IMG/VR virus record: IMGVR_UViG_3300025785_001290 | Location: 1 to 23,110 of that record | Direction: 5' to 3' (one strand) | From: a virus | DNA length: 23,110 bases | Shown: positions 1 through 22,875 of the stretch, piece after piece | Layout of the letters: each line of letters begins with the position of its first letter | Numbering within the stretch: position 1 is the stretch's first letter | The notes under the pieces: model-generated | Told to the model about the DNA's origin: nothing | Databases searched by the model: none | The model's input: only the letters and a program-made list of their open reading frames with translations | Program-made: the position numbers and the translations under genes

Positions 1-1818
1 CTTTACTGGTTCTGTCTTTCCCTTGACGGCGAGTAAGTCGAGCTCAACGACTTGGTATGTATCTCGTACATACTCGGCGGTTTTTGGTCCGATGACAATT
101 TTGACCCCGTAAGGCTTTGATTGACCTTCCAAACGAGATGCCAAATTGACCCCATCACCCAAGCAAGTATAATCAAAACGCTGGGCACTGCCCATATTAC
201 CGACAACAACAGTATCAGTATTAATACCGAGACCCATTCCAAAAGCGGGGATTCCTTCTGCGGTAACTTCATTGTTAAATTCCTTTAATGCTTTCAACAT
301 CTGGAATGCAGTTCTAACAGCATCTTTAGCATGTTGTTCATTGTTAACAGGAGCATTCCAGAAAGCCATCTGCGCATCACCGATGTACTTGTCCAGTGTA
401 CCCTTGTTTTCAAGAATCGCTTTGGTCATTGCTGTCATATAACGATTCATAATCTTAGTTAGTCCCTGTACATCCTTGCCGTAGTGTTCTGAAATTGTAG
501 TAAACCCGCGAACGTCAGTGAACATGATAGACAACTCTTGTTCGGTACCGCCTAGCTGTAGCATATCTGGATTGCGCTGCAACTGCGCAACAAGATCCGG
601 TGACAAATATGTGCCAAACTGTTTCTTAATTTGTTGCTTCTGAAGGAACTCATTAATGAATTTAACTGAATAAACGTGTAAATAAATGACTAGTGCTGCT
701 AGGAAGTTAAAGGATATATCGAATAATATTTTATTGTGGTTAAACATATAAACAGGCGCATATACATAACCTGCTAGAAGTATACCAATCCAAACAATAG
801 AATATCTTACATTAGACAATCCGATAACTGCAAGAGAAAGAAAAGCAAATGCCGCAAGATCAACAAGACCAACCCAATTCGGAATCGAAACAGAATCTCC
901 ATTTAGAAGAGTCTGGAGAATACTGGCCTGAACCTGATGGGGCATTTCGGCACCAGCCGGAGTCGCTACGGGATTTGCAATTCCGCTCGCAGTCACACCA
1001 AGTAGAACGATCTTTCCATCGAGACGAGGAATATTCTCGCCTACTTCAAACGATGAGAATACGTAATTCGGGTTATTAAAAATACGCCCATATTCATCAG
1101 TGGAGATTTTACCAAACTGTGGAACACGAACCGCCTCAACTCCCGTCTCATTTATCTTCGCTTGATAGCTTGGATCGCCTGCGGCAGTACGTAGAAGCTC
1201 TAAAGCAAACGAGGGATAGTATTCTCCAGCTGATGTCGCTAACATTGGAACTCGACGAACAACACCGTCCGATTCGGGAAGAGTCGATGTTATTCCAACG
1301 CCTGCGGCAGATTCTTGAAGACTTGGAATATTATCGAGCACACATGGATAGTTTGGAAGAAAGTCTGTTGGCTTACCGTCTCCAACAACTGCGACGCCTG
1401 TTCGACGAGTAGCTGCGTTATTGCGTGTGCAATCTGAGGAAACTGTCTGACTTAATACTACTGGGTAATTTTTAAGTGATGCTGCGAAAGCATCGTCACC
1501 GTTAAATCTATCTTTTTCAGGGTATAACATAGTGCTACCGACGAGGCCAGCATGACCAGTACCGTACAGATCAGAAATAATTTTCGCATAAGTGTCCCTT
1601 GGAAATGGATATTGACCATATTTGGCCAAGGCTTTTTCACCAATATTTGCAATTACAATCTGTTCACTATGAACAGGTTTACCTAACATTAGATAGTCAT
1701 AGAATTTAAGTTTCATTGCATCAACTAGATACGGGTTTGACAGTTTAACCACCAACAGCAGCGCAAAGGTTAGTATCGCTAACCAAGGGCTTAACAAAAC
1801 TTTTCTTAAATTCTTCAT
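1..1818 (-). CDS. CHASE2-domain class III adenylate cyclase (3' end outside window)
   Basis: Membrane sensor enzyme predicted to make cAMP from ATP. It is read from ATG 1818 (AAGGA upstream) and is open at the window edge after 606 codons. An N-terminal hydrophobic segment (about 10-25) precedes an extracytoplasmic CHASE2 region (about 30-300; DGVVRR and YPSFALEL fit the family). Three hydrophobic segments follow (about 310-390), then a cytoplasmic cyclase domain (about 425-606). The metal-binding aspartates D435 (FTDVRGFT) and D481 (KYIGDA) are present. K477 and the DYT motif fit adenine recognition, and N558 and R562 (NLASRLE) are the transition-state residues, so the enzyme looks active. 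The last residues, GKTEPVK, are typical of the domain end, so little is missing. It is the last visible gene of the curli-like operon, 10 bp after the PA14/curlin gene. The specificity call (cAMP rather than cGMP) is family inference. Confidence 0.93.
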   Translation of the reverse strand, partial: MKNLRKVLLSPWLAILTFALLLVVKLSNPYLVDAMKLKFYDYLMLGKPVHSEQIVIANIGEKALAKYGQYPFPRDTYAKIISDLYGTGHAGLVGSTMLYPEKDRFNGDDAFAASLKNYPVVLSQTVSSDCTRNNAATRRTGVAVVGDGKPTDFLPNYPCVLDNIPSLQESAAGVGITSTLPESDGVVRRVPMLATSAGEYYPSFALELLRTAAGDPSYQAKINETGVEAVRVPQFGKISTDEYGRIFNNPNYVFSSFEVGENIPRLDGKIVLLGVTASGIANPVATPAGAEMPHQVQASILQTLLNGDSVSIPNWVGLVDLAAFAFLSLAVIGLSNVRYSIVWIGILLAGYVYAPVYMFNHNKILFDISFNFLAALVIYLHVYSVKFINEFLQKQQIKKQFGTYLSPDLVAQLQRNPDMLQLGGTEQELSIMFTDVRGFTTISEHYGKDVQGLTKIMNRYMTAMTKAILENKGTLDKYIGDAQMAFWNAPVNNEQHAKDAVRTAFQMLKALKEFNNEVTAEGIPAFGMGLGINTDTVVVGNMGSAQRFDYTCLGDGVNLASRLEGQSKPYGVKIVIGPKTAEYVRDTYQVVELDLLAVKGKTEPVK

Positions 1819-1828
1819 CACGCTATCC

Positions 1829-3025
1829 TTAATGCTTTACATAGGAGTATCCTGTGCAAGGTCCAGAGGTACACGTAATGCTCATTGACGCACTGTCAGC
1901 GGTGGTAGCATTATCTTGAACAACTGTTACTCCAACGTTAGCACTATTTATAGTTAAAGAGAATAACTTCTGTGCTGCGCCGGCCTGTGTAACGCTTACG
2001 GTATTTCCGCTGGTGGGGATGTTTAATTCAAGAAAATGATTAGCATTGCCCTGCTGTGTTGTAGTAATTGAGTTGTTGCTACCACTAACTTCAATAAATG
2101 CACTTTTGCCCGCAGTTCCGGATTGGGTGACATTGGCAGAATTAGTGCTACCATTAATATTTGCTTCTGTATAATTCGAAGACGTTTGTTGATTAATGGA
2201 CAATGTATTGTATGAACCTATTATAGAGGCTTCTAACAAATTATTATATCCAGGAACCGTAGTGCTTCCTTGTTGCACATTCATGGTATTATAGTTACCA
2301 TTGATCACAGCAGATTGTGCTCCATTAATACCTCGTATCACATTGTAATCACCTGTTTGTGTTATAGTCACATTGGTATTATTTCCATAGTTTTGAATAT
2401 ATACAGAATTATTTGTCAACGACACAGTCTGTGATATTTTAACAAGTTCTTGAGTAGATACTGAAGCACTAGGTAATGGCGCTCCCCCATCTCCGAATGC
2501 TTTTGGATTTGGCATCGTTGTTACATAATCACTATTTGGTATTAACGTGATAGAACCGGATTGATTCCAAAATAACTCTACTGCGGCGCCGCCGCCATTT
2601 TCATAATACCACACGTCAAACGCATAGGTTTGGCCGCCTTGCAGGGTTATAGAACCGCGCCCGTTCCAATTTGCTGGTCCTTGTTCTTGCCAATTACTAA
2701 TAACTCGCGAACCGTTGACATTTAAAATAAATCCGTCATCGGAATAATCATAAAATGTAATAGTCTGCGATCCAGAACCAGGAACAGTAATGTATCCGGT
2801 GAAGTGTATTTCAACTCCGTCTGCTAGTCCGGAATTCATAACAATTCCTGTTCCCCAGTTGTAATTGATGTTAGTAGTTGTTCCAGAATTTAATGCCTGA
2901 CCGCATCCGAAACAAGGAGTAGGTCCACCTGCGCGGTATACCTGATAGTTAACATCCGCAAAAGCTCGTGGAGTGAATAACATTAAACATAGAACAAAAA
3001 TCAAGAGCTTATTAAAGGGTTTCAC
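1829..3025 (-). CDS. Secreted PA14-domain / curlin-repeat fusion protein (putative adhesin)
   Basis: 398 aa, GTG start that overlaps the fecR-like stop as GTGA, with GAGGAG about 10 nt upstream. A signal peptide (about 1-23, ending AFA) is followed by a PA14-like beta-barrel at about 25-172. It carries the hallmark aspartate pair D96-D97 in YSDDGFILNVNG, which in yeast flocculins and related adhesins binds calcium and sugar. From about 195 to 375 the chain is made of Asn/Gln/Ser/Thr-rich curlin-like repeats (NTMNVQQG, NSITTTQQGNANH, NTVSVTQAG), which predict a beta-solenoid. Cysteines C38/C41 and C385/C390 could form disulfides. A natural reading is a sugar-binding head on an amyloid-like stalk exported through CsgG. 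The fusion order is seen in the sequence; the ligand and export route are inferred. Confidence 0.86.
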   Translation of the reverse strand: MKPFNKLLIFVLCLMLFTPRAFADVNYQVYRAGGPTPCFGCGQALNSGTTTNINYNWGTGIVMNSGLADGVEIHFTGYITVPGSGSQTITFYDYSDDGFILNVNGSRVISNWQEQGPANWNGRGSITLQGGQTYAFDVWYYENGGGAAVELFWNQSGSITLIPNSDYVTTMPNPKAFGDGGAPLPSASVSTQELVKISQTVSLTNNSVYIQNYGNNTNVTITQTGDYNVIRGINGAQSAVINGNYNTMNVQQGSTTVPGYNNLLEASIIGSYNTLSINQQTSSNYTEANINGSTNSANVTQSGTAGKSAFIEVSGSNNSITTTQQGNANHFLELNIPTSGNTVSVTQAGAAQKLFSLTINSANVGVTVVQDNATTADSASMSITCTSGPCTGYSYVKH

Positions 3026-4176
3026 TTTGGCGGTGCTCCTCGCTGAATAATAGTAATTGTTCCATCGGGTCGTCCCGTACCCGGAGTAGGCCAGTGATGA
3101 TCGGAGAAATTAAATCCGCCAACAATTCCGTCTTGTTCTGTTGTTATTTCTACTTTGGTATTTTTAGGTAAAATGATAATAGATTCTTGTAATTTACTGT
3201 CAGAAATTGTAGTATATGTCCAACCGATCTGGATTAATTTCTTACTAAGCAAGGGATCGACGTCTGTATACACTGTTTGTTTTAATTTTTGTCCCGGATT
3301 ATACTCTACGTATACGGCTTGGAGTTCTGGCTGTGTAGGTGGATTGGCTATAGCAGCAGCAACCATTTCTACATTATCTGTAGTATTTAAATCAGGCTCT
3401 GCGTTTTTATCAGCAGCATTACCCGCCGCATTGGTTTTTTTGAATTCTTTTTTTGCTGACTGTTCTAGGCTTGTACCATCCGAGGTAGGGGGCGTTGCAA
3501 TCTGCAATGAGTTGTTTAATTGCCGGGAGTTAAGGCTAACTGTTTTCGGTGGTGTCGGAGATATATTTGCGCTATCTACTACAGTGGCTTGGAACGGCTT
3601 GTTTAGAGTAACTTTTCCAGTAGCGGTAGCAACTTCGATTTCACCTGTTGGACAATCTGCGATTAGCTTATCCGGATCTTTTTCATCATAACAATTTGGC
3701 AGCAGAACAACCATAGTTCTACCAATCTCGTCAACACTCATGATAAAATCTGTACCACGTACACCAATTGTGGCAGTAGGTGAATGAATATTTACTGCTC
3801 CGGGATTGTTATGAGCAATTGCACCCGATGCATAGCGTACAGTGCCTAGTGCAACTTTAAGTCCTAGCTTACCTTTATTTGATTTTCCGCCATCGAACAC
3901 AAAATCATCTATTACTAATTTGCTATTTTCTGTAATACTAACTGTGGTTGCATCCACAAACGTGATTTTAAATTTTCCTTGACTATTAGTAGAAACAGTA
4001 TCATTCTTTTCAATGCCTGCACCTTTGGCAGCAGGCATGGCCCGGGCAGCACGTTTAATCTGCCCGGCGCCTTTAAACTCTGTTATTGATCCAATACCGG
4101 CATAAGCAGGCACTGACAATAACATCAGTAATAATGCTAATAGTTTACTTGCCTGTTTTAATGTTGATCGTACCAT
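3022..4176 (-). CDS. Periplasmic FecR-domain protein
   Basis: A FecR-domain protein of 384 aa from ATG 4176. A GTG at 4188 would add four residues, but neither start has a good ribosome-binding site. The gene overlaps the upstream curlin gene by about 30 nt. A signal peptide (ending PAYA, about residue 26) is followed by the FecR fold at about 30-160, with LGTVRYASG and the signature SPTATIGVRGTDF. The rest is Lys/Asn-rich with no transmembrane segment after the signal, so the product is probably periplasmic or secreted. It is not the classical FecR: there is no cytoplasmic anti-sigma N-terminus, no FecI-like sigma gene and no TonB receptor nearby. FecR-domain proteins of this exported type are known next to CHASE2 proteins in bacteria, which fits its position two genes before the cyclase. 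Its partner and ligand are unknown. Confidence 0.85.
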   Translation of the reverse strand: MVRSTLKQASKLLALLLMLLSVPAYAGIGSITEFKGAGQIKRAARAMPAAKGAGIEKNDTVSTNSQGKFKITFVDATTVSITENSKLVIDDFVFDGGKSNKGKLGLKVALGTVRYASGAIAHNNPGAVNIHSPTATIGVRGTDFIMSVDEIGRTMVVLLPNCYDEKDPDKLIADCPTGEIEVATATGKVTLNKPFQATVVDSANISPTPPKTVSLNSRQLNNSLQIATPPTSDGTSLEQSAKKEFKKTNAAGNAADKNAEPDLNTTDNVEMVAAAIANPPTQPELQAVYVEYNPGQKLKQTVYTDVDPLLSKKLIQIGWTYTTISDSKLQESIIILPKNTKVEITTEQDGIVGGFNFSDHHWPTPGTGRPDGTITIIQRGAPPK

Positions 4177-4921
4177 TTGATCCAACACTTGTTAAATTAA
4201 TAATGGTAGAATTTGGTCCATACTGTTGAGTTGTAACATTATTATTCGAACCGGTTATATTTTCATATAAACTGTGTCCATACATGCCACCAATGTCAGA
4301 CTGAGTAGCATTAACAGTGTTGTAACTGCCATTGTATACCACAGTCTGGGAAGCATTAGGAGAGGTAACATCCATATTTAAAGTATTGTTACTACCAGTT
4401 ACATTTACAGTATTGGTGATGTTCGCTGCTGCACCGTGAAATACATAAGAATTGCTATCCCCAGTGAATAATGCGTTCATATTAAGATTGTTACATGATG
4501 CTTCGTTTGTGCCGTTACCGCAACGAACAACAGCAGAGTTGCTATTACCAATCTGTCGTAGGGTTACTGTTGCTAATCCCAATGCTCCTGTATCAGAAAC
4601 AACAGATGCCAATACTGAGTTACTATTTCCTGTTTGAATTACAGTAACGGTTTGATTGTCACCTCTTAGATAAACAGGGTCACTTAATGTACCTACTGTG
4701 TTAGTTTGACCAGTTTGTTGGACGTTGATATTGACGTTAGAACCTGCTTGATTGATATAAACTCGGTTTGTTTGTGCAACTGCATCTGCTTCTGCCTGAT
4801 TAGGTGAAGTAGCAACAATTGCTGGTGGCGATGGCGGTGTAGGCACAGTTGCCACTGATTGTGCAAACGCAGGCGATGCAAATAATACTGTGGTAAGTAA
4901 TATTGATTTTAATAGTTTCAT
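4145..4921 (-). CDS. Secreted curlin-repeat (CsgA/CsgB-like) protein
   Basis: 258 aa, ATG overlapping the csgG stop (ATGA), with AGGAG 8 nt upstream. A signal peptide (1-20, cleavage after AFA) is followed by a Pro/Ala-rich linker (about 21-50). That linker replaces the Gly/Asn-rich export segment of E. coli CsgA. Residues about 52 to 258 hold repeats with the curlin pattern of Asn, alternating hydrophobics and Gln-x-Gly-x-x-Asn: VYINQAGSN, VNVQQTG-like, TVTVIQTGNSN and TVTLRQIGNSN are the clearest, degenerating toward the C-terminus. C134 and C143 may form a disulfide. Lying directly after csgF-csgG, it is the best candidate for the secreted fibre subunit. Whether it is the CsgA or CsgB equivalent cannot be told from the sequence. 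Confidence 0.87.
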   Translation of the reverse strand: MKLLKSILLTTVLFASPAFAQSVATVPTPPSPPAIVATSPNQAEADAVAQTNRVYINQAGSNVNINVQQTGQTNTVGTLSDPVYLRGDNQTVTVIQTGNSNSVLASVVSDTGALGLATVTLRQIGNSNSAVVRCGNGTNEASCNNLNMNALFTGDSNSYVFHGAAANITNTVNVTGSNNTLNMDVTSPNASQTVVYNGSYNTVNATQSDIGGMYGHSLYENITGSNNNVTTQQYGPNSTIINLTSVGSNGTINIKTGK

Positions 4922-5739
4922 CTTGATTGCTCCTGTGGCTTAGCCTTAAAACGCCAAAGCCCTTTCCTTTCTCCCTGCTTTATTAGCTCTACAACTCCTG
5001 TCTCTATAGCAGACCGTATTGCATAGCTGGCTGGCTCATTTCTAGTTTGTTGACCGTCAACTTCAAATGCCTTTGTGCCTAGATCAAAAAACTCAAATGC
5101 AGTAATACCTTCAGAAGTAGATAGCACAGTTTTTTCAACGGTTACTGTCTCTAGAATTTCTCCAGTTTGTACAGACACTAATCGTAAACTAATTACTACC
5201 TCGTCCTGAATGTACTGTGTATTTGGACCAATTCCTAGAAATCTAACACCATTGCCTCCGGTCTTAACATCGGAGTTATAGTCAATAATGCCACCTTCTA
5301 GGAGTACACCCGCTACCATCAGGGGAGGTAGCGGTGCTGCTTTGTCGCCGCTCTCTAATTCACGCATTTGACGAATCAATTGGCGTTCTTTAATTAGAGA
5401 ATCAAGCGATACTCTTTCTACAGGGCGAAACCACTTTCCGCCACCGGAATCTTGTAGGGTTTTTACCACGTAGGCATCTGCACCTTGTGTAACAGCAGTC
5501 GAAAACGACGACACTGTTTGTGAAGGTTTACGTTGTCCTGTCTTATCTGTAAAACTGTAAACTGCGATAGGAATCGGAACACCATCTAATTCTGGAAGAT
5601 TTGCCCAAAGTTTTGGATTAGTGTAAGTGCTAACAGTAGCAGGAACAGGATTCAAATAGGAATGATTTAGCCTAGGACCAATTCCGCCCACGCATCCGGA
5701 TAATGCAAATAATAGTGGTAATACTATTAACTTTTTCAT
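4918..5739 (-). CDS. csgG: CsgG-like curli secretion channel (outer-membrane lipoprotein)
   Basis: 273 aa, close to the 277 aa of E. coli CsgG. A lipobox LSGC gives lipidated C16. The CsgG family forms a nonameric outer-membrane beta-barrel that exports curli subunits. Conserved blocks are visible: FSTAV at 79-83, SLIKERQLIR near 114-123, the membrane-hairpin region SDVKTGGNGVRFLGIG (156-171), TGEILETVTVEKT (192-204) and SAIETGV with GLWRF near the end. The constriction loop (about 71-79) keeps the Phe of E. coli F56, but the Tyr51 and Asn55 positions hold Ser/Gln and Ser, and the loop seems one residue longer. AAGGAG precedes the ATG, which lies 9 bp after csgF. Confidence 0.96.
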   Translation of the reverse strand: MKKLIVLPLLFALSGCVGGIGPRLNHSYLNPVPATVSTYTNPKLWANLPELDGVPIPIAVYSFTDKTGQRKPSQTVSSFSTAVTQGADAYVVKTLQDSGGGKWFRPVERVSLDSLIKERQLIRQMRELESGDKAAPLPPLMVAGVLLEGGIIDYNSDVKTGGNGVRFLGIGPNTQYIQDEVVISLRLVSVQTGEILETVTVEKTVLSTSEGITAFEFFDLGTKAFEVDGQQTRNEPASYAIRSAIETGVVELIKQGERKGLWRFKAKPQEQSR

Positions 5740-5748
5740 CTTAACTCC

Positions 5749-6198
5749 TTAAAACGCGAATGTTGCAATTGGAACGGTCACTACCGTTTGGTTCCCAGAC
5801 GAATCGACAACAGTTAATGTTACATCGCTGTTTGATTTGACATAGCTAATTGTGTTACCATCTAACTTGAATGTACCTGCAGTCGACGACCCAGGAGCAC
5901 CGCCGAAAAGGTTGTTGCTCAACTGCGTTGCTAACTGTGAATATACCTGACTAGTAAATAGGTTAATAAACTTAGCCATTGGAGTGTTTGCGGCAGCGGT
6001 CGCAGCAGCTTGTGCGGCCGCATTTTGAGCATCGATTAATGCTTGTTTTCTCGATTGTTCTTCCTGTTGGATTGTTACAACGTAACTACCCCAACCTGCT
6101 CCACTAAACGCAGGGTCTTTAAATTGTTGTGTTAAATCACCAGCGAAGGCAGGACTACTTAGTGTTAATAGAATCAGTGCTGCTAGAATCTTTTTCAT
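5749..6198 (-). CDS. csgF: CsgF-like curli assembly factor
   Basis: 149 aa with a signal peptide (1-19, ending AFA). The mature N-terminus reads GDLTQQFKDPAFSG, matching the E. coli CsgF segment TFQFRNPNFGG that inserts into the CsgG pore and caps it at the cell surface. An Ala-rich linker (about 60-73) and the helix FINLFTSQVYSQLATQL with NNLFGG follow, then a C-terminal beta region (TLTVVDSSGNQTVVTV) like the CsgF tail. In curli systems CsgF couples the pore to nucleation of the fibre outside the cell. The start has a near-perfect AGGAGGT ribosome-binding site 8 nt upstream, so strong translation is expected. Confidence 0.93.
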   Translation of the reverse strand: MKKILAALILLTLSSPAFAGDLTQQFKDPAFSGAGWGSYVVTIQQEEQSRKQALIDAQNAAAQAAATAAANTPMAKFINLFTSQVYSQLATQLSNNLFGGAPGSSTAGTFKLDGNTISYVKSNSDVTLTVVDSSGNQTVVTVPIATFAF

Positions 6199-6239
6199 CT
6201 TTACCTACCTCCTTTTTACCTTCAGAAGAGAACACAAAT

Positions 6240-6527
6240 TCAATCTTCAGTATCTTTAACATTTCTATTTTTAGATTTATGTACACTGTGATCCTCCTCT
6301 ATCTGTAGCACTACGCTCACTTTTTGCTGTAATCTTATTAAATCATTGTCTAACATACGAATTCGATCAATTAGCGCAACTAGAACTACGTTTGTCTCAC
6401 CAATTAATGGCATCAATCGTTCAGTAACGAACTTATAAATGAAGTACACGAAATACCCCATTCCCACAGACGAAACTATCGGAAAGCCATATTGCTTAAT
6501 CAATAATGCTAATTGATTTGGATCCAT
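6240..6527 (-). CDS. Small membrane protein, second of a tandem pair (YvrJ/holin-like)
   Basis: 95 aa. One hydrophobic segment at about 14-33, beginning GFPIVSSVGMGYFVYFIY, is followed by an amphipathic, coiled-coil-like stretch (about 45-75) and a charged tail. It is a diverged copy of the gene just upstream, sharing GFPIV, G-x-FVYF and the D-R-x-R-x-(L/M)-(D/N)-x-D pattern, and starts at TAATG on that gene's stop. The GFPIV start of the membrane segment resembles YvrJ-family proteins and some small phage membrane proteins. Candidate roles are holin, antiholin or an inner-membrane component of the curli-like machinery that follows 41 bp downstream. The sequence does not decide. Confidence 0.8.
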   Translation of the reverse strand: MDPNQLALLIKQYGFPIVSSVGMGYFVYFIYKFVTERLMPLIGETNVVLVALIDRIRMLDNDLIRLQQKVSVVLQIEEDHSVHKSKNRNVKDTED

Positions 6528-6814
6528 TAGTCTCTTCTCGCATCATTCTTGCCGTCGGCTCGTGCGATACGATCGAGATCCGGTCTTAGTCCCAATGCCG
6601 AACTTACGGTGGCATCGATACGAATCATATCATGATTCATAGTTCTAACTCGGTTGTCTAGCGCAGTGATAATTCCCTGCATGCCTTTAATGGCTTTGAC
6701 AACGCTTTCGAGAATGTAATTGATTACGAAATAGACAAAGACGCCGCCTCCTATAGCCGCAACTATAGGAAATCCGACGTCTCCGATTAACTTAAAGATT
6801 ACATCACTATTCAT
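6527..6814 (-). CDS. Small membrane protein, first of a tandem pair (YvrJ/holin-like)
   Basis: 95 aa, the same length as its neighbour. A transmembrane segment at about 14-33 (GFPIVAAIGGGVFVYFVI) is followed by a helical region with DNRVRTMNHDMIRI and an Asp/Arg-rich tail. It is the first gene after the 146-bp gap at 6815-6960, and so the probable first gene of the curli-like operon. It also lies directly downstream of a peptidoglycan-hydrolase gene, a place where phages often keep a holin. I see no clear ribosome-binding site; GCGTGC precedes the ATG. Confidence 0.8.
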   Translation of the reverse strand: MNSDVIFKLIGDVGFPIVAAIGGGVFVYFVINYILESVVKAIKGMQGIITALDNRVRTMNHDMIRIDATVSSALGLRPDLDRIARADGKNDARRD

Positions 6815-6960: not shown

Positions 6961-7803
6961 TTAAGCACCTTTGTGTGGACGAAATATTCCGGAAATTTGG
7001 CCTTTGCCGGATGCACTTAGTCCGCTCGGCCACGACACTGTTACTGCACTGTGACCAGGATTGTTGTTTCCAACTGACCCGCCTTGATTGCCTCCGATAA
7101 ATGTATAATTTCCCGGACCTTTTACTTGATAAATGAAATTTACGTGATGGAAATTCCAATACACAATATCCCCTGGCTGACCTTGATTAATAGGAACAGG
7201 AGTTGCACTCCATCTTCCGGGATTTGATGAAATTGCCTGAGAACTTGCTTCCGGGCACCATTTATAACCGCAAGATTTAAGAGCAAAATTAACAAATCCC
7301 ATGCACCATGCCGGTTGATCGGTTTTAAACAGTGCATTTCCTGATAGCCCCAGAGATTTCCAAATGTTTGCAATATTTGGATTACCAGGAGTTGAAACAA
7401 TTGTTCCGTGTGCGGGGTTAACTCGAGACCAAGCCCCCGAAGCCGCTTCCTTTACTCTAGCTTCTAACCAGGGAATTAAATCCCCACCAGTTGCTGAAAG
7501 ATCTACGGCTCCGGGAGTATTAGTTAACGGTGATGCAGAATCACTTGATCCGACAGGTCCACCGTTCGCAGCTTCTTCAGCAGGGGAAGCAATTGAACTT
7601 GCTGCAAATTCGTCGGCGGCGGCTTGATCTACTGTTGATTGTGCGGCAGGAACACTGGCAGAAGCGGCACTTCCTGATCCTGCCCCATACAATACAATAG
7701 GAACATTATTTGAAAATACAGTAGGTGATTGATAAAGATCAGTAACGTCAGGACTTGTACTCGACTGCTGCGGTTTACCATCTGTAATCCACGGTGTACT
7801 CAT
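6961..7803 (-). CDS. PAAR-like tip domain fused to CHAP/NlpC-type peptidoglycan hydrolase
   Basis: 280 aa, ATG with AGGGA upstream. The N-terminus (about 1-40) has the pattern TPWITDGKP...SPTVFSNNVPIVLY, resembling PAAR-like tail-tip proteins of T4-like phages. An Ala/Ser-rich linker (about 41-100) leads to a C-terminal cysteine-peptidase/amidase domain (about 108-278). That domain has candidate catalytic C167 (PAWCMGFVNFAL), H219 or H220 (FHHVNFIY, after GDIVYW) and N239 (FIGGNQGG), as in CHAP-type endopeptidases. The likely role is cutting murein either from the baseplate tip during entry or at lysis. The PAAR-like front favours a virion part; the neighbouring holin-like genes favour a lysis role. 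Confidence 0.78.
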   Translation of the reverse strand: MSTPWITDGKPQQSSTSPDVTDLYQSPTVFSNNVPIVLYGAGSGSAASASVPAAQSTVDQAAADEFAASSIASPAEEAANGGPVGSSDSASPLTNTPGAVDLSATGGDLIPWLEARVKEAASGAWSRVNPAHGTIVSTPGNPNIANIWKSLGLSGNALFKTDQPAWCMGFVNFALKSCGYKWCPEASSQAISSNPGRWSATPVPINQGQPGDIVYWNFHHVNFIYQVKGPGNYTFIGGNQGGSVGNNNPGHSAVTVSWPSGLSASGKGQISGIFRPHKGA

Positions 7804-12237: not shown

Positions 12238-14589
12238 TTAGAGCTTACAGGCTAGACAGTCGTCTTCGTCTTCATATATTGTAATAGGTTCACCCGGAAC
12301 AATGTTATTTTGTGTACTTCCGTTAATCTGGGTAGTGCCAGTTACTGCTTCCTTAGACCCAACCTTGTTGATCAAGCTATAATATATAGTCTTAATGCCC
12401 CACTTATAAGCAAGCATGAGATTCTTGACAATTAATGTGCCGGGAATCTTGCCACCTGGAAAATGTGCGGGATTATAAAAAGTATTAGTCGAAAGTGATT
12501 GATCGATGTAAGCAGCAAGAACCGCAGCAGTCTTTAGATATGCTTCACAGTTAGTCTGATCCCACATTAATTGATAACGGTTCTTGTAACGACGATATTC
12601 CGGAACAACCTGTACAAACGATCCTGCTTTGGATTCCTTGACCGAGATCAGTTCCATGGGCATTTCGATACCATTAGTTGAATTAAGAACAACACTTGAA
12701 CTTTCCACAGGAGCAACGGCCATTAGCGTAGCATTACGAATTCCATATTGCAACAGTCGAACGCGAAGACCTTCCCAGTCTAGGTTAGAACTAGGTGTAA
12801 AGTCTGTTAGTTCATTAACTCCTTCAGCTCTACGTTCCCAAGGAAAAATACCTCGGCCGTAGTAAGTTGCAGAGCTACGTTCGCAAGGACCACGTTCTTG
12901 TGCGAGTTCGACACTCATCTCAGTGAGGAAGTAAGCCTGATGCTCCATCCAACGTTTTACTTCGGCTAACGTCTCAGCTTCACCGTACTTAAAATTTCGA
13001 CGAGCATGCCAGTAAGCTAGATTAGTAATTCCGATGCCAAGAGGTTCAAATTCTTTATTTGCAAGCTGACTCTGAATGCTTAGGAAATCCTGATAGCTGA
13101 GCAAATTGCTAAGGCTGCGTACAAGAACACGGCAGGCCTTACGCATTTCTTGCGGATTACGAAATGCTCCCCAATTGATGCTTCCTAATGTGCAGAGTGC
13201 AATACGTCCAGCTTCATCTTCGATGCGTTGAAATGGGCGAGTAGGAAGTAGAATCTCTTGACACAAGTTGCTCTGATAGATAGGATCTGTTGTAGTATCA
13301 AACGGACCTTGATTAATAACATTGTCGATATTTACAAGATAGATACGACCAGTATCAGTACGTTCTTTTAGAATACCATTTTTAATAACTTCTTCAGCAG
13401 CAATGGTTTTCTTTTTAATTACATTGTTCTTTTCATATTTTACATACAGCTTTTCAAATTCTTCACTGTTACGATAATATGCTTCGTAAAGATCCGGAAC
13501 ATCATGCGGATCGAATAAGGTGATATTCTCTTTGTTCTTTAAACGTCGCCAGAACATTGCATTCATTACAACGCTGTAATCCATTTGACGAACACGAGTT
13601 TCTTCTGTGCCCTGGTTGTTTTTTAGTACAATTAGGTCTTCAAACTGATAATGCCAAATTGGGAAAGTGACTGTGCAGCTGGCATTTCTGATGCCACCTT
13701 GTGAGCAGCTACGCAGGTCTGCAAACCACTTTTTAAGAAAAGGAATTAATCCAGTATGTTTGATCTCACCCTTACGAATTGGGGCTCCGATCGGTCGAAT
13801 TCTGCCAATTTCGAGGCCGATTCCGGCTCGTTTTGAAGCATATTTGGCCATCATTTCGCCTGCTGCAAAGATACTGTCCAATGTATCGTCTGCAGAAATT
13901 AAAACGCAGCTAGAAAACTGTTTTGTCGGAGTTCCGAGTCCTGCAAGCACAGGTGTGGCCAAGGTGAAGTGCCCGTCGCTGGCGCATTCATAATATTCTT
14001 TGACTAACTTTAGTCGCTTATCTGCGGGCTCATTGTGGAATGCAGTTGCAGCAGCAATAGCATATCGTACCTGCGGAGTTTCGTAGATCTTTCCGGTTGC
14101 TCGATTCTGCACCAGATACTTTTCTGCAAGCTGAGCAATCGCAGCGTAGGTGTAATTTTCATCTTTGTCATGATCGATGAATAGATTAATTATATTCCAC
14201 TCATCCTCAGTGTACCACTCAAGTAGTTCCGAGCTGTACATACCGAGTTCTACATTCTTTTTAACAATGTCATAAAGCGGCGGCGGAGTGTATGTGCCAT
14301 ATACACTTTTGCGTAACATACTAACTTTCTGGCGACCAGCAACGTACTGATAGTTTACGTTGTTGATTTCCGGATTTTCGCTTTCGTCGATAAGATCGAC
14401 CATAGCCTTGAGCAACAGTTCGTCAATGGTTTCTGTACTAATGCCGTCATGTAGTTCTAGGTGAGCTTTAATTTCGATCATAGACGGACTAACTCCATCT
14501 ATACCTTTGCAGTCAAATGCTACCTGTCTTTGTATTTTATTAATATCTAACGGCACTTTTTGACCGCTGCGTTTGACGACTGTTATCAT
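12238..14589 (-). CDS. nrdA: Ribonucleotide reductase class Ia alpha subunit NrdA
   Basis: 783 aa (E. coli 761). Reduces NDPs to dNDPs. An N-terminal ATP-cone (about 1-90; VVKRSGQKVPLDINKI) indicates dATP/ATP control. Catalytic residues are all visible: C228 (SSCVLI) and C466 (ALCTLGS) as the redox pair, N441-x-C443-x-E445 (NLCQE) as the radical site, and the tyrosine pair Y736-Y737 (IYYSL) for radical transfer. The C-terminal shuttle cysteines are C778/C781 in DCLACKL, a CxxC rather than the Cx4C of E. coli. GAGG precedes the ATG. It works with the NrdB and glutaredoxin encoded downstream. Confidence 0.97.
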   Translation of the reverse strand: MITVVKRSGQKVPLDINKIQRQVAFDCKGIDGVSPSMIEIKAHLELHDGISTETIDELLLKAMVDLIDESENPEINNVNYQYVAGRQKVSMLRKSVYGTYTPPPLYDIVKKNVELGMYSSELLEWYTEDEWNIINLFIDHDKDENYTYAAIAQLAEKYLVQNRATGKIYETPQVRYAIAAATAFHNEPADKRLKLVKEYYECASDGHFTLATPVLAGLGTPTKQFSSCVLISADDTLDSIFAAGEMMAKYASKRAGIGLEIGRIRPIGAPIRKGEIKHTGLIPFLKKWFADLRSCSQGGIRNASCTVTFPIWHYQFEDLIVLKNNQGTEETRVRQMDYSVVMNAMFWRRLKNKENITLFDPHDVPDLYEAYYRNSEEFEKLYVKYEKNNVIKKKTIAAEEVIKNGILKERTDTGRIYLVNIDNVINQGPFDTTTDPIYQSNLCQEILLPTRPFQRIEDEAGRIALCTLGSINWGAFRNPQEMRKACRVLVRSLSNLLSYQDFLSIQSQLANKEFEPLGIGITNLAYWHARRNFKYGEAETLAEVKRWMEHQAYFLTEMSVELAQERGPCERSSATYYGRGIFPWERRAEGVNELTDFTPSSNLDWEGLRVRLLQYGIRNATLMAVAPVESSSVVLNSTNGIEMPMELISVKESKAGSFVQVVPEYRRYKNRYQLMWDQTNCEAYLKTAAVLAAYIDQSLSTNTFYNPAHFPGGKIPGTLIVKNLMLAYKWGIKTIYYSLINKVGSKEAVTGTTQINGSTQNNIVPGEPITIYEDEDDCLACKL

Positions 14590-14621: not shown

Positions 14622-15056
14622 TTACCTGGGTCTCTCGAGCTCGATTATATTTTCGAGGAGAAATTCTTCAGGTATTTGACTGGTTAAAAACGCTTCAGTA
14701 TCTGAAAAATTTAAAACCTGCTCATCGTCTACATAGATTACATTGTACAATCTTTTACGAACTTTGTCTACCAATGTTCTTAATTGTATTGTAGAATTTT
14801 TATAACGGTCAGTTAGCAATAAGGTATAACCCATCATTATTGCTTTGGTAAAATCATCATAACGATTTTGTTCAATAATTTCCCACGGAGTTGGCCAACT
14901 AGCCGGGTAAAAGGGATCAATCAACACGTTATTAGGAATGATTGGGGTTTGTTGCCAAAAGTCTATTAAGTCTTGTAACGGATCGTCACTGACTTCTAGT
15001 GCTTTTCGCAAACTTGACCATGCCGCTAGCCGGTGGTCGAGATCTAATTTAAACAT
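14622..15056 (-). CDS. Conserved T4-like marine phage protein
   Basis: 144 aa, starting at TAATG on the stop of the tail-fibre gene. The most conserved-looking block is LIDFWQQTPIIPN with NVLIDPFYPASWPTPWEII and DDFTKAIMMGYTLLLT (about 30-80). This Pro/Trp-rich block is of a kind I associate with small proteins of T4-like cyanophages. The C-terminal half is alpha/beta. No membrane segment. Translational coupling to the fibre suggests a fibre-assembly or baseplate-associated role, but this is only context. Confidence 0.72.
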   Translation of the reverse strand: MFKLDLDHRLAAWSSLRKALEVSDDPLQDLIDFWQQTPIIPNNVLIDPFYPASWPTPWEIIEQNRYDDFTKAIMMGYTLLLTDRYKNSTIQLRTLVDKVRKRLYNVIYVDDEQVLNFSDTEAFLTSQIPEEFLLENIIELERPR

Positions 15057-16630
15057 TATTGCCTTACGTAAACAGAGTAATTTAATGATCCAGCAAACGA
15101 CGGACTAACTGTCGTTGCCATAATTTCGATTGCTTGTGGATTTGAAAGATTTACAGAAAATGTAGTTCCGCCATCATTGGCACCACTGAAGGTAAAATTA
15201 TCAGTAATTGTGCTTGTGCCATTATTAACTAGAACTGTAATTAATCCACGACGAATAGTTGTACCAATAGACAGAGTGTAGTCAATTTCAATTTCTTGTC
15301 CAACACTAGAAATACCGTGAATACCGTAGCTGCTAATTGTCGGCCACACAAACAATGGATATGTGGTAGTACCTATTGCAATAGCCAAAGGAGTACCTGC
15401 AAAGGACGAATAAGTGCATGGTCCGTTGACTACCGGAGCAATCGAAGTAAATTGAGCAACGCTGCCAGTATTAAGTGCTACCAATCTAGAAAAATCATCA
15501 TTGCTTGATGAATTTTGATATGAATTAAACGTGATGACATCAGTGACTGGTGAAAAATCACCGTTGGTGCTGCCGTAACCGATACCTACTTTAGAATAAG
15601 AATTGTTAAAGCTCTTGATGTAGTTTACGCCCGAGAAGTTATTTCCGACATATAATCCTTGATTGTTGACTAGATAGAAACTATTGTCATGAATGTTAAC
15701 GTGCTGTGGTCCATTTAGGCTTCCGACACCGCCCGTTAAATTCTTAGAGAATGCAATACCTGCATCAACGCTCTTGAATTTGTTATCATGAATATCAATA
15801 TTAACGATATCATAGTCGCTCTTGATTCCAGTTCCTAGATTTGAGAAAACGCATTCTCTGATATTGACATTATCGCAGGTAAGTGCGCCGAGTCCGATCA
15901 TTTCTACGCCAGCAGCTAATGTGCTAGTCGATGCAATACTAGTATTACCGATAAAAGCACAATTCGAAATGATACTGTCCACTGCACAATTAAGCTTCAC
16001 CATCGATCCTGCATTAGTCAATGACGACACAAAAGTAACGCCATCAATTTTAATATTCTTCGGAGTTTTAGCAGCACTATTAACATCAGTTAATACACTG
16101 GATAAATTCGATCCCACTGTTTGGAATATACTTGCAGTAGTGGTAGCAACTAGGATGGTTTTATTTTGTCCTGCTCCATGAATTTCAGCATATGGAGGAA
16201 CTAAGATAGTTGCTGTAACATAGTAGGTACCTTCAGGAATAGTCAATACCTTGGTGTTAGTAGCACCGAATGTAATTGCTCGACGTAGAGCATCTTGATC
16301 ATTGCCAAAACTGTTGACGTTAAGGGAATCATCTAATCTACTCTGCAAGGTTCTAACGATATAAGGGTTGCTAGGAGGACCTGTAATGACTGCAGGATTA
16401 GTACTTTGGTATGTATAGTCAGCAGTTACAGTGAACAACCCGGTGTCGTTCACTGTAAGCAATCGAGTGTTACCTACAGCAGGAGCACCTTCACTGACTG
16501 AACCGTTACCGATATATAGCTCTTGTTGGTCAATGCTCCAACCAAATTCTCCACTTGCTAGTTGTGGAAATCCTGTTTGAGCAGTTTGTCCTCTTCGAAT
16601 CTGAACCCTTGAAATTTGGATTACGGCCAA
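15056..16630 (-). CDS. Tail fibre/spike with pectate-lyase-type beta-helix
   Basis: 524 aa, TTG start with AGGAG 7 nt upstream and a late-promoter box 22 bp upstream. The N-terminus (about 1-60; ISRVQIRRGQTAQTGFPQLASG broken by a turn, then LYIGNGS) is the short attachment domain common at the head of phage tail fibres. Residues about 95-400 form repeated right-handed beta-helix coils (VNIRECVFSNLG, VNIDIHDNKFKS, VNIHDNSFYLV), as in pectate-lyase-like spikes. The C-terminal 120 residues look like a beta-sandwich. The likely role is receptor binding or polysaccharide trimming at the tail; enzymatic activity cannot be judged from the sequence. Confidence 0.86.
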   Translation of the reverse strand: MAVIQISRVQIRRGQTAQTGFPQLASGEFGWSIDQQELYIGNGSVSEGAPAVGNTRLLTVNDTGLFTVTADYTYQSTNPAVITGPPSNPYIVRTLQSRLDDSLNVNSFGNDQDALRRAITFGATNTKVLTIPEGTYYVTATILVPPYAEIHGAGQNKTILVATTTASIFQTVGSNLSSVLTDVNSAAKTPKNIKIDGVTFVSSLTNAGSMVKLNCAVDSIISNCAFIGNTSIASTSTLAAGVEMIGLGALTCDNVNIRECVFSNLGTGIKSDYDIVNIDIHDNKFKSVDAGIAFSKNLTGGVGSLNGPQHVNIHDNSFYLVNNQGLYVGNNFSGVNYIKSFNNSYSKVGIGYGSTNGDFSPVTDVITFNSYQNSSSNDDFSRLVALNTGSVAQFTSIAPVVNGPCTYSSFAGTPLAIAIGTTTYPLFVWPTISSYGIHGISSVGQEIEIDYTLSIGTTIRRGLITVLVNNGTSTITDNFTFSGANDGGTTFSVNLSNPQAIEIMATTVSPSFAGSLNYSVYVRQ

Positions 16631-22230: not shown

Positions 22231-22875
22231 TCAGTGGAATTTAATTCCCGATGCTGCTTCTACAGTAGCGAGCGGAACTTCATTAACTGGAGCCTTAACA
22301 GTGTTGTTGGCAACGTAGGCTTTGATCGTGCCGTCCTTAAGATATACAATCTTGTAATAGCTTGTAGGAACTGGAACATTGTGCTTGCCGATTGTCTTGG
22401 TGCTGCCTGTGTAGATTGCACCAGTGACAATATAAGTTGCTGGCATTGTACGGACATTGGCTTCTAGCATACGCCAAGAAATACGATTAACAGTTGGCTC
22501 CTGTGGAGTCATATTTGTCATTAGAAAAGTATCAGACATTTGATTGTCGTTGCCGGCATCTGCCGCAGGTGTAAGATGTCCACGGTCAAGTCCAGTGTTG
22601 TCGTAATCACCCGGAGTTGGGGAGTTTTTGAGCCGGGGGTCGGCGTGAAAATTGTTTGATCGTTCCACTTTGTCTGCGTGTGGAAGGAACGCTTCTGTGG
22701 AAAAAATAGCTTCTTCCTTATTGGCATTGTAGACAGTGGCATAGAAAGTGTTGCAGAGAACCTGTGTACCTGGTACAACAATTTCCTTGCCGTTTGGAAA
22801 GAATTGATCACAGGCCGAAGCATGTGCTGCTGCCGGTGCAAGTAGAAATGAAAGTGCAAGAAATAGTTTCTTCAT
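22231..22875 (-). CDS. Secreted DNA/RNA non-specific endonuclease (NucA/NUC1 type)
   Basis: 214 aa. A signal peptide (about 1-19, ending AHA) sends it to the periplasm or outside. The family's DRGH motif is at 97-100 (catalytic H100) in LDRGHLTPAADAG. N121 (TNMTPQ), the metal-binding N130, and the W134/E138 block (RISWRMLEANVR) follow in the normal order. AAGGA precedes the ATG and a late-type box lies 25 bp upstream. It would cut DNA and RNA without sequence choice, plausibly degrading incoming competitor DNA or released host DNA, or helping lysate spread; these roles are inferred. Confidence 0.93.
   Translation of the reverse strand: MKKLFLALSFLLAPAAAHASACDQFFPNGKEIVVPGTQVLCNTFYATVYNANKEEAIFSTEAFLPHADKVERSNNFHADPRLKNSPTPGDYDNTGLDRGHLTPAADAGNDNQMSDTFLMTNMTPQEPTVNRISWRMLEANVRTMPATYIVTGAIYTGSTKTIGKHNVPVPTSYYKIVYLKDGTIKAYVANNTVKAPVNEVPLATVEAASGIKFH

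Follow-up and report, generated by a model that had tools for sequence, protein, structure and literature searches.

Why does a phage carry genes for curli-type (type VIII) secretion beside a FecR-domain protein and an adenylate cyclase? The question is raised by the IMG/VR virus record IMGVR_UViG_3300025785_001290, a metagenomic assembly of 23,110 bases from a phage of aquatic bacteria, analysed here at its full length (the window), in which eight co-directional minus-strand genes run from position 6814 to the contig end at position 1 (Table 1). Neighbouring genes overlap by 1–44 nt or stand 7–42 nt apart, and encode a pair of small membrane paralogues (smA and smB), CsgF, CsgG, a curlin-repeat protein, a FecR-domain protein, a fusion of PA14 with curlin repeats, and a CHASE2 adenylate cyclase. 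These identities, called in a first-pass annotation from the letters alone, were confirmed by family searches and are as good as certain. We read the operon as a phage-encoded type VIII secretion module joined to a trans-envelope relay, i.e., an exporter of fibres whose state would be reported inward as cyclic AMP (cAMP), and give this reading about an even chance of being correct. A single device of fibre and signal is better supported than a pore alone or a lysis function.

According to the proposed mechanism, the infected host would build an outer-membrane pore of CsgG and CsgF, and the pore would export two curlin-type fibre proteins, one of them with a PA14 head that would bind sugars and might attach to the glycans of neighbouring cells or of the cell's own surface. 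The secreted FecR-domain protein would remain in the periplasm and, presumably by contact, pass the state of pore or fibre to the inner-membrane CHASE2 sensor; the class III domain of this sensor, on the cytoplasmic side, would make cAMP. Because no phage-encoded cyclic nucleotide (cNMP)-binding protein or cAMP receptor was found in 14 phage records, the cAMP would act on a receptor of the host, to the presumed benefit of the phage.

Table 1. Genes of the curli-type operon and other features of the window.
Feature	Position	Strand	Evidence
smA, 95 aa	6527..6814	-	phrog_18771
smB, 95 aa, smA paralogue	6240..6527	-	phrog_18771; 1-nt overlap with smA
CsgF, 149 aa	5749..6198	-	PF10614 5.3e-17; aligns to 6l7a CsgF
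CsgG outer-membrane pore lipoprotein, 273 aa	4918..5739	-	PF03783 2.3e-51; lipobox LSGC
Curlin-repeat fibre protein 1 (CsgA/B-like), 258 aa, signal peptide	4145..4921	-	motif count and synteny
Secreted FecR-domain protein, 388 aa	3022..4188	-	PF04773 8.1e-11; AlphaFold model
PA14 + curlin repeats, 398 aa, signal peptide	1829..3025	-	PF07691 2.7e-14, PF07012 5e-05
CHASE2 sensor + class III adenylate cyclase, 607 of 686 aa	1..1821	-	CHASE2 1.4e-35, Guanylate_cyc 6.9e-21
TIGR02594/CHAP-type protein (tail lysozyme or endolysin)	6961-7803	-	
NrdA	12238-14589	-	
Mtd N-terminal domain + pectate-lyase-like repeat fusion	15056-16630	-	
Endonuclease_NS, secreted DNA/RNA non-specific endonuclease	22231-22875	-	2e-35

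The secretion half of the operon has these components of a type VIII curli system: a CsgG pore, CsgF, and a curlin-repeat subunit with a signal peptide. CsgG aligns with the CsgG of 3x2r along its full length (4.6e-47), and the signal peptide of CsgF ends in AFA, which leaves a mature N-terminus, GDLTQQFKDPAFSG, that resembles the CsgG-binding N-terminus of E. coli CsgF. The first curlin is marginal in Pfam (0.098, under the cut-off), whereas the second, in the PA14 fusion, lies above the cut-off; the first has a curlin motif count higher than all 2000 shuffles and occupies the curlin position of syntenic phages. No CsgD, CsgE or CsgC was found among the proteins scanned in the window, which is a fragment.

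The sensor half begins with the FecR-domain protein, which consists of a FecR fold of the cell-surface signalling (CSS) type (residues ~33–217), a low-confidence linker (~218–308) and a C-terminal beta domain (~309–382). Its AlphaFold model, built from an alignment in which the row of the phage Melnitz was left out, matches the periplasmic signalling domain of PupR (6ovk; Foldseek E 2e-5), and the protein thus has the periplasmic CSS fold of FecI/FecR cell-surface signalling. The signal peptide leads directly into the FecR domain, with no cytoplasmic anti-sigma domain before it and no further membrane helix in the protein, and no partner sigma factor was found among the neighbouring window proteins scanned. 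The profile of the last 48 residues aligns with the final curlin repeat (score 26.5, versus 6.6–15 for segments of other families). With a signalling head, a flexible linker of sufficient length to span the channel and a tail weakly similar to curlin, the protein might pass through the pore and be tethered to the fibre, in place of the periplasmic gate CsgE; we hold this anchor or plug detail to be rather unlikely. A slightly less likely elaboration is a tethered plug, with its head in the periplasm, its linker running through CsgG and its tail in the fibre, in which fibre assembly or a pull on the PA14 tip would be transmitted to CHASE2 and raise cAMP. If true, phages would carry a contact sensor that spans the envelope, is coupled to an amyloid and has exchangeable tips.

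The cyclase has the features of a CHASE2 class III adenylate cyclase, i.e., the CHASE2 domain, one N-terminal and three central transmembrane segments, and all six catalytic residues (D436, K478, D482, T552, N559 and R563). The gene is cut at the contig end, and the full 686 aa are seen in two nearly identical contigs (L007 and L008); the operon is therefore incomplete in the window, and the 'complete device' of the first-pass annotation does not apply to this contig. Among 178 phage cyclases, the two metal-binding aspartates and the adenine-selecting lysine are kept in every one, and all six catalytic positions in 143, which argues that catalytic activity is under selection. Among 20 CHASE2-cyclase loci of alphaproteobacteria, a FecR gene is found at a distance of about 5 kb or less in 9, as compared with none of 76 bacterial CsgG loci (1.4 Mb). 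FecR and CHASE2 cyclase are thus a recurrent bacterial pair, which the sensor arm resembles as if joined to a curli pore. Related arrangements are known: biofilm in Burkholderia is regulated by an operon (BiofilmReg) of FecR and a CHASE2 kinase (PMC5192318), and in S. meliloti CHASE2 cyclases raise cAMP once an extracellular protein has been detected by a beta-barrel protein of the outer membrane (PMC13001267). As in the phage, a secreted FecR-domain protein adjoins a CHASE2 membrane sensor in the Burkholderia operon and its alphaproteobacterial counterparts, whereas in the phage the pair forms part of a curli operon and its FecR protein ends in a beta domain rather than LysM.

Between fecR and the cyclase gene stands the PA14–curlin fusion, a putative sugar-binding fibre tip. 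Its structural model matches sugar-binding adhesins, namely the Flo1 and Flo5 flocculins and the PA14 lectin of the RTX adhesin MpAFP, and a DDG motif is invariant across 10 homologues. The position it occupies is a variable slot of 0 to 3.3 kb, which in related loci holds PA14–curlin, other curlins, an Endonuclease_NS protein or unknown proteins, or nothing. We note that the window encodes an Endonuclease_NS protein elsewhere (Table 1); homologues are found in 15 related phage loci, several of them within or beside the curli module (e.g., L021, L065, L061, L176 and L177).

The module is already known, and the operon of the window is a further member. Zaragoza-Solas et al. (2020) described CsgF and CsgG with unknown genes (PMC7029224), Buchholz et al. 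(2022) proposed a lysis role in the Methylophilales phage Melnitz (PMC9004378), and Wittmers et al. (2022) described the entire module, including curlins, FecR and cyclase, found it widespread in ocean viromes and reported expression of its genes in Pacific metatranscriptomes (PMC9599517); the term PA14 does not occur in the main text of the last paper. The FecR and cyclase arm, which the first-pass annotation took for an addition to known phage clusters, is present in Melnitz and in the cultured Pelagibacter phage HTVC008M, and was published in 2022 (PMC9599517). As in the pelagiphage-type module, csgF, csgG, curlins, fecR and cyclase follow one another without interruption, in the sequence given, in a phage genome. 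HTVC008M gp11–gp19 likewise comprise two short genes, csgF, csgG, a curlin, fecR, a second curlin (gp18, also PA14 plus curlin) and a cyclase. Melnitz, a T4-like phage, has the same gene order, and differs in lacking the PA14 head, in two changed positions of the cyclase active site and in the lysis-regulator proposal attached to it (PMC9004378). To these accounts the present analysis adds a named variable tip slot, a corrected gene label (see below) and, in place of a vague function, tests that can be run.

We searched 80 IMG/VR CsgG loci, together with the loci retrieved by scans with the small pair and the cyclase, using hidden Markov models built on the window, HTVC008M and Melnitz. Most loci of sufficient length share the order csgF–csgG–curlin–fecR–(slot)–cyclase, with the cyclase strand flipped in a few. 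In the cultured-phage collection, CsgG has matches in two HTVC008M and four Melnitz-strain records, in a distantly related protein of a Brevundimonas phage and in a 'Salmonella phage' record, eight in all. The phage-type FecR protein is confined there to the HTVC008M and Melnitz records. The 'Salmonella phage' record (OR851715.1, 1.5 kb) has a CsgG that clusters with those of Oxalobacteraceae and Alcaligenaceae, and is probably bacterial contamination.

Bacterial curli loci (csgBAC–csgDEFG, or alphaproteobacterial csgFG with curlins) share CsgG, CsgF and curlin-repeat subunits with the phage module, and differ in having no adjoining FecR, module-type cyclase or small pair. Within the stretches examined, 76 of 80 bacterial-genome CsgG loci have no phage-type FecR and small pair beside csgG, and none has the cyclase of the module (one distant cyclase-like match, L162). 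Four loci from GTDB genomes are of the phage type. L136, from a metagenome-assembled genome (MAG), is T4-like phage DNA as judged by its clamp loader, sliding clamp and DNA polymerase, and L086, L087 and L091 are short MAG contigs (3–7 kb) whose CsgGs cluster with those of phages; the bins of these four loci are assigned to Sphingobacteriales, Pelagibacter, Pirellulales and Flavobacteriales. In the CsgG tree, all module phages fall on one side of a branch with an SH-aLRT support of 99, in an unrooted topology that gives no direction of transfer. The first-pass annotation had asked whether homologues of the cluster occur only in bacterial chromosomes. The opposite was found: the module is phage-restricted in the samples examined, and the idea that the entire cluster was taken over ready-made from bacteria was rejected, as no bacterial locus found carries it apart from these phage-type entries.

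The two small proteins upstream of csgF are paralogues within one phage family. smA has a single hydrophobic segment (residues ~13–31), followed by a tail that ends in a conserved ...GK.DARRD and is probably a coiled coil. Almost every related locus has the two genes in tandem, placed before csgF or, on the opposite strand, past the cyclase, and in the cultured-phage collection the pair occurs only in csgG-bearing phages (the HTVC008M and Melnitz records). In PMC9599517, the gene preceding the module is called a histidine kinase. The window proteins, of 95 aa with at most one predicted membrane segment, match neither HisKA/HATPase nor any other kinase family. Because HTVC008M, which was included in PMC9599517, carries the same proteins, their sequences place in doubt the label of the short genes and not their membership in the module. 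csgG is present in 52 of the 77 new loci from the small-pair scan, and several of the others stop at contig ends. Because four contigs of 33–79 kb (L170, 9714-10264; L181, L183 and L185), each the visible part of its phage genome, carry close relatives of the pair without csgG, these proteins may not be an obligate part of the device and could serve a separate function.

Four other explanations deserve consideration. Curli genes are otherwise bacterial and IMG/VR contigs are metagenomic assemblies, so bacterial DNA might have been misjoined to a phage contig. The remainder of the window is phage DNA (NrdA, NrdB, ThyX, a PDDEXK exonuclease and a tail protein), which places the operon in a T4-like phage fragment. 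A search for an assembly break between the curli and phage genes found none: the same junction is repeated in three other IMG/VR contigs with 99.7–99.98% identity across 8–16 kb, and the phage linkage claimed at first pass holds. These contigs carry different metagenome IDs, which do not distinguish separate waters from reassemblies; they rule out an assembly artefact. Taken with the module of cultured phages, the grouping of module-phage CsgGs in the tree and the absence of the FecR and small-pair set from 76 bacterial CsgG loci, the repeated junction makes a misjoin next to impossible. Published accounts differ on whether phage curli modules make fibres, and Buchholz et al. proposed that CsgG and CsgF of Melnitz are a repurposed lysis-timing or gated pore, with a holin/antiholin-like small pair and no fibres (PMC9004378). 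smA indeed matches a holin PHROG weakly (6.5e-4), and a CHAP/TIGR02594 protein is encoded directly upstream of the small pair in the window. However, curlin-repeat proteins adjoin csgG in almost all loci, contrary to the premise of missing fibre genes in that study, the FecR protein, PA14 head and active cyclase are left unexplained, and the small pair as a holin or lysis cassette was rejected for want of a consistent endolysin neighbour (none in HTVC008M, Melnitz or L170). The evidence thus weighs against a lysis role, which we consider improbable.

The remaining two explanations concern the purpose of the pore and its fibres. Superinfection defence has been raised for the module (PMC9599517), and the fibres might chiefly form a coat or mask that excludes other phages, while slot nucleases degrade incoming DNA and the cAMP arm tunes host physiology independently. 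The variable slot and the secreted Endonuclease_NS genes in or beside the module of several phages, as in inter-phage competition cassettes, fit such a role, whereas the PA14 head points to binding rather than masking; this purpose seems unlikely, yet the least so of the four. An open CsgG pore might instead let in nutrients or cofactors while the infection proceeds, their supply being monitored by FecR and CHASE2, as suggested in PMC7029224 and PMC9599517 and by the name of the FecR family. The absence of an anti-sigma domain, a membrane helix and a partner sigma factor, described above, argues against this idea, which also leaves CsgF and one to two curlins unexplained and is quite improbable. 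We therefore argue that the fibre, the FecR relay and the active cyclase are one co-inherited device; the first-pass reading of pore, CsgF, fibre, adhesive head, periplasmic relay and cyclase is supported. Several observations weigh against it. Of the roles suggested at first pass, which were clumping of infected cells, superinfection exclusion and host reprogramming, clumping was looked for in the one culture study, and Melnitz-infected cultures showed none (PMC9004378). The PA14–curlin model has only moderate confidence (a pLDDT, or predicted local distance difference test score, of 66), and several loci do without any gene in its slot, which makes the tip dispensable. For the curlin-like tail of the FecR protein the profile match is weak, and 2 of 100 shuffles scored spuriously high over 11 columns. 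A Melnitz-type sub-group of the cyclases (~33 of 178 copies) is altered at two active-site positions (T to D and N to S). Finally, the single Pelagibacter MAG searched yielded no cNMP-binding protein that could be the target of cAMP in SAR11-like hosts.

Several observations lie outside this argument. An example of the Melnitz-type cyclase sub-group is found in locus L003 (12667-14718), and others in related loci. The window phage has ~40% GC, and its CsgG is only ~46% identical to that of HTVC008M. In contrast to what is typical of pelagiphages, its NrdA is closest to those of Xanthomonas and Stenotrophomonas phages, with identities of 60% and 53%, and the Mtd N-terminal and pectate-lyase-like fusion is a likely tail spike or receptor-binding protein. 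Matches to the late-promoter motif TATAAATA were no better than chance, a sigma-70 promoter scan gave results at chance level, and an Rfam scan gave no match. PHROG families of unknown function that can now be named are 35576 (CHASE2 cyclase), 37870 (FecR), 20175 (CsgG), 35372 (CsgF) and 18771 (the small pair).

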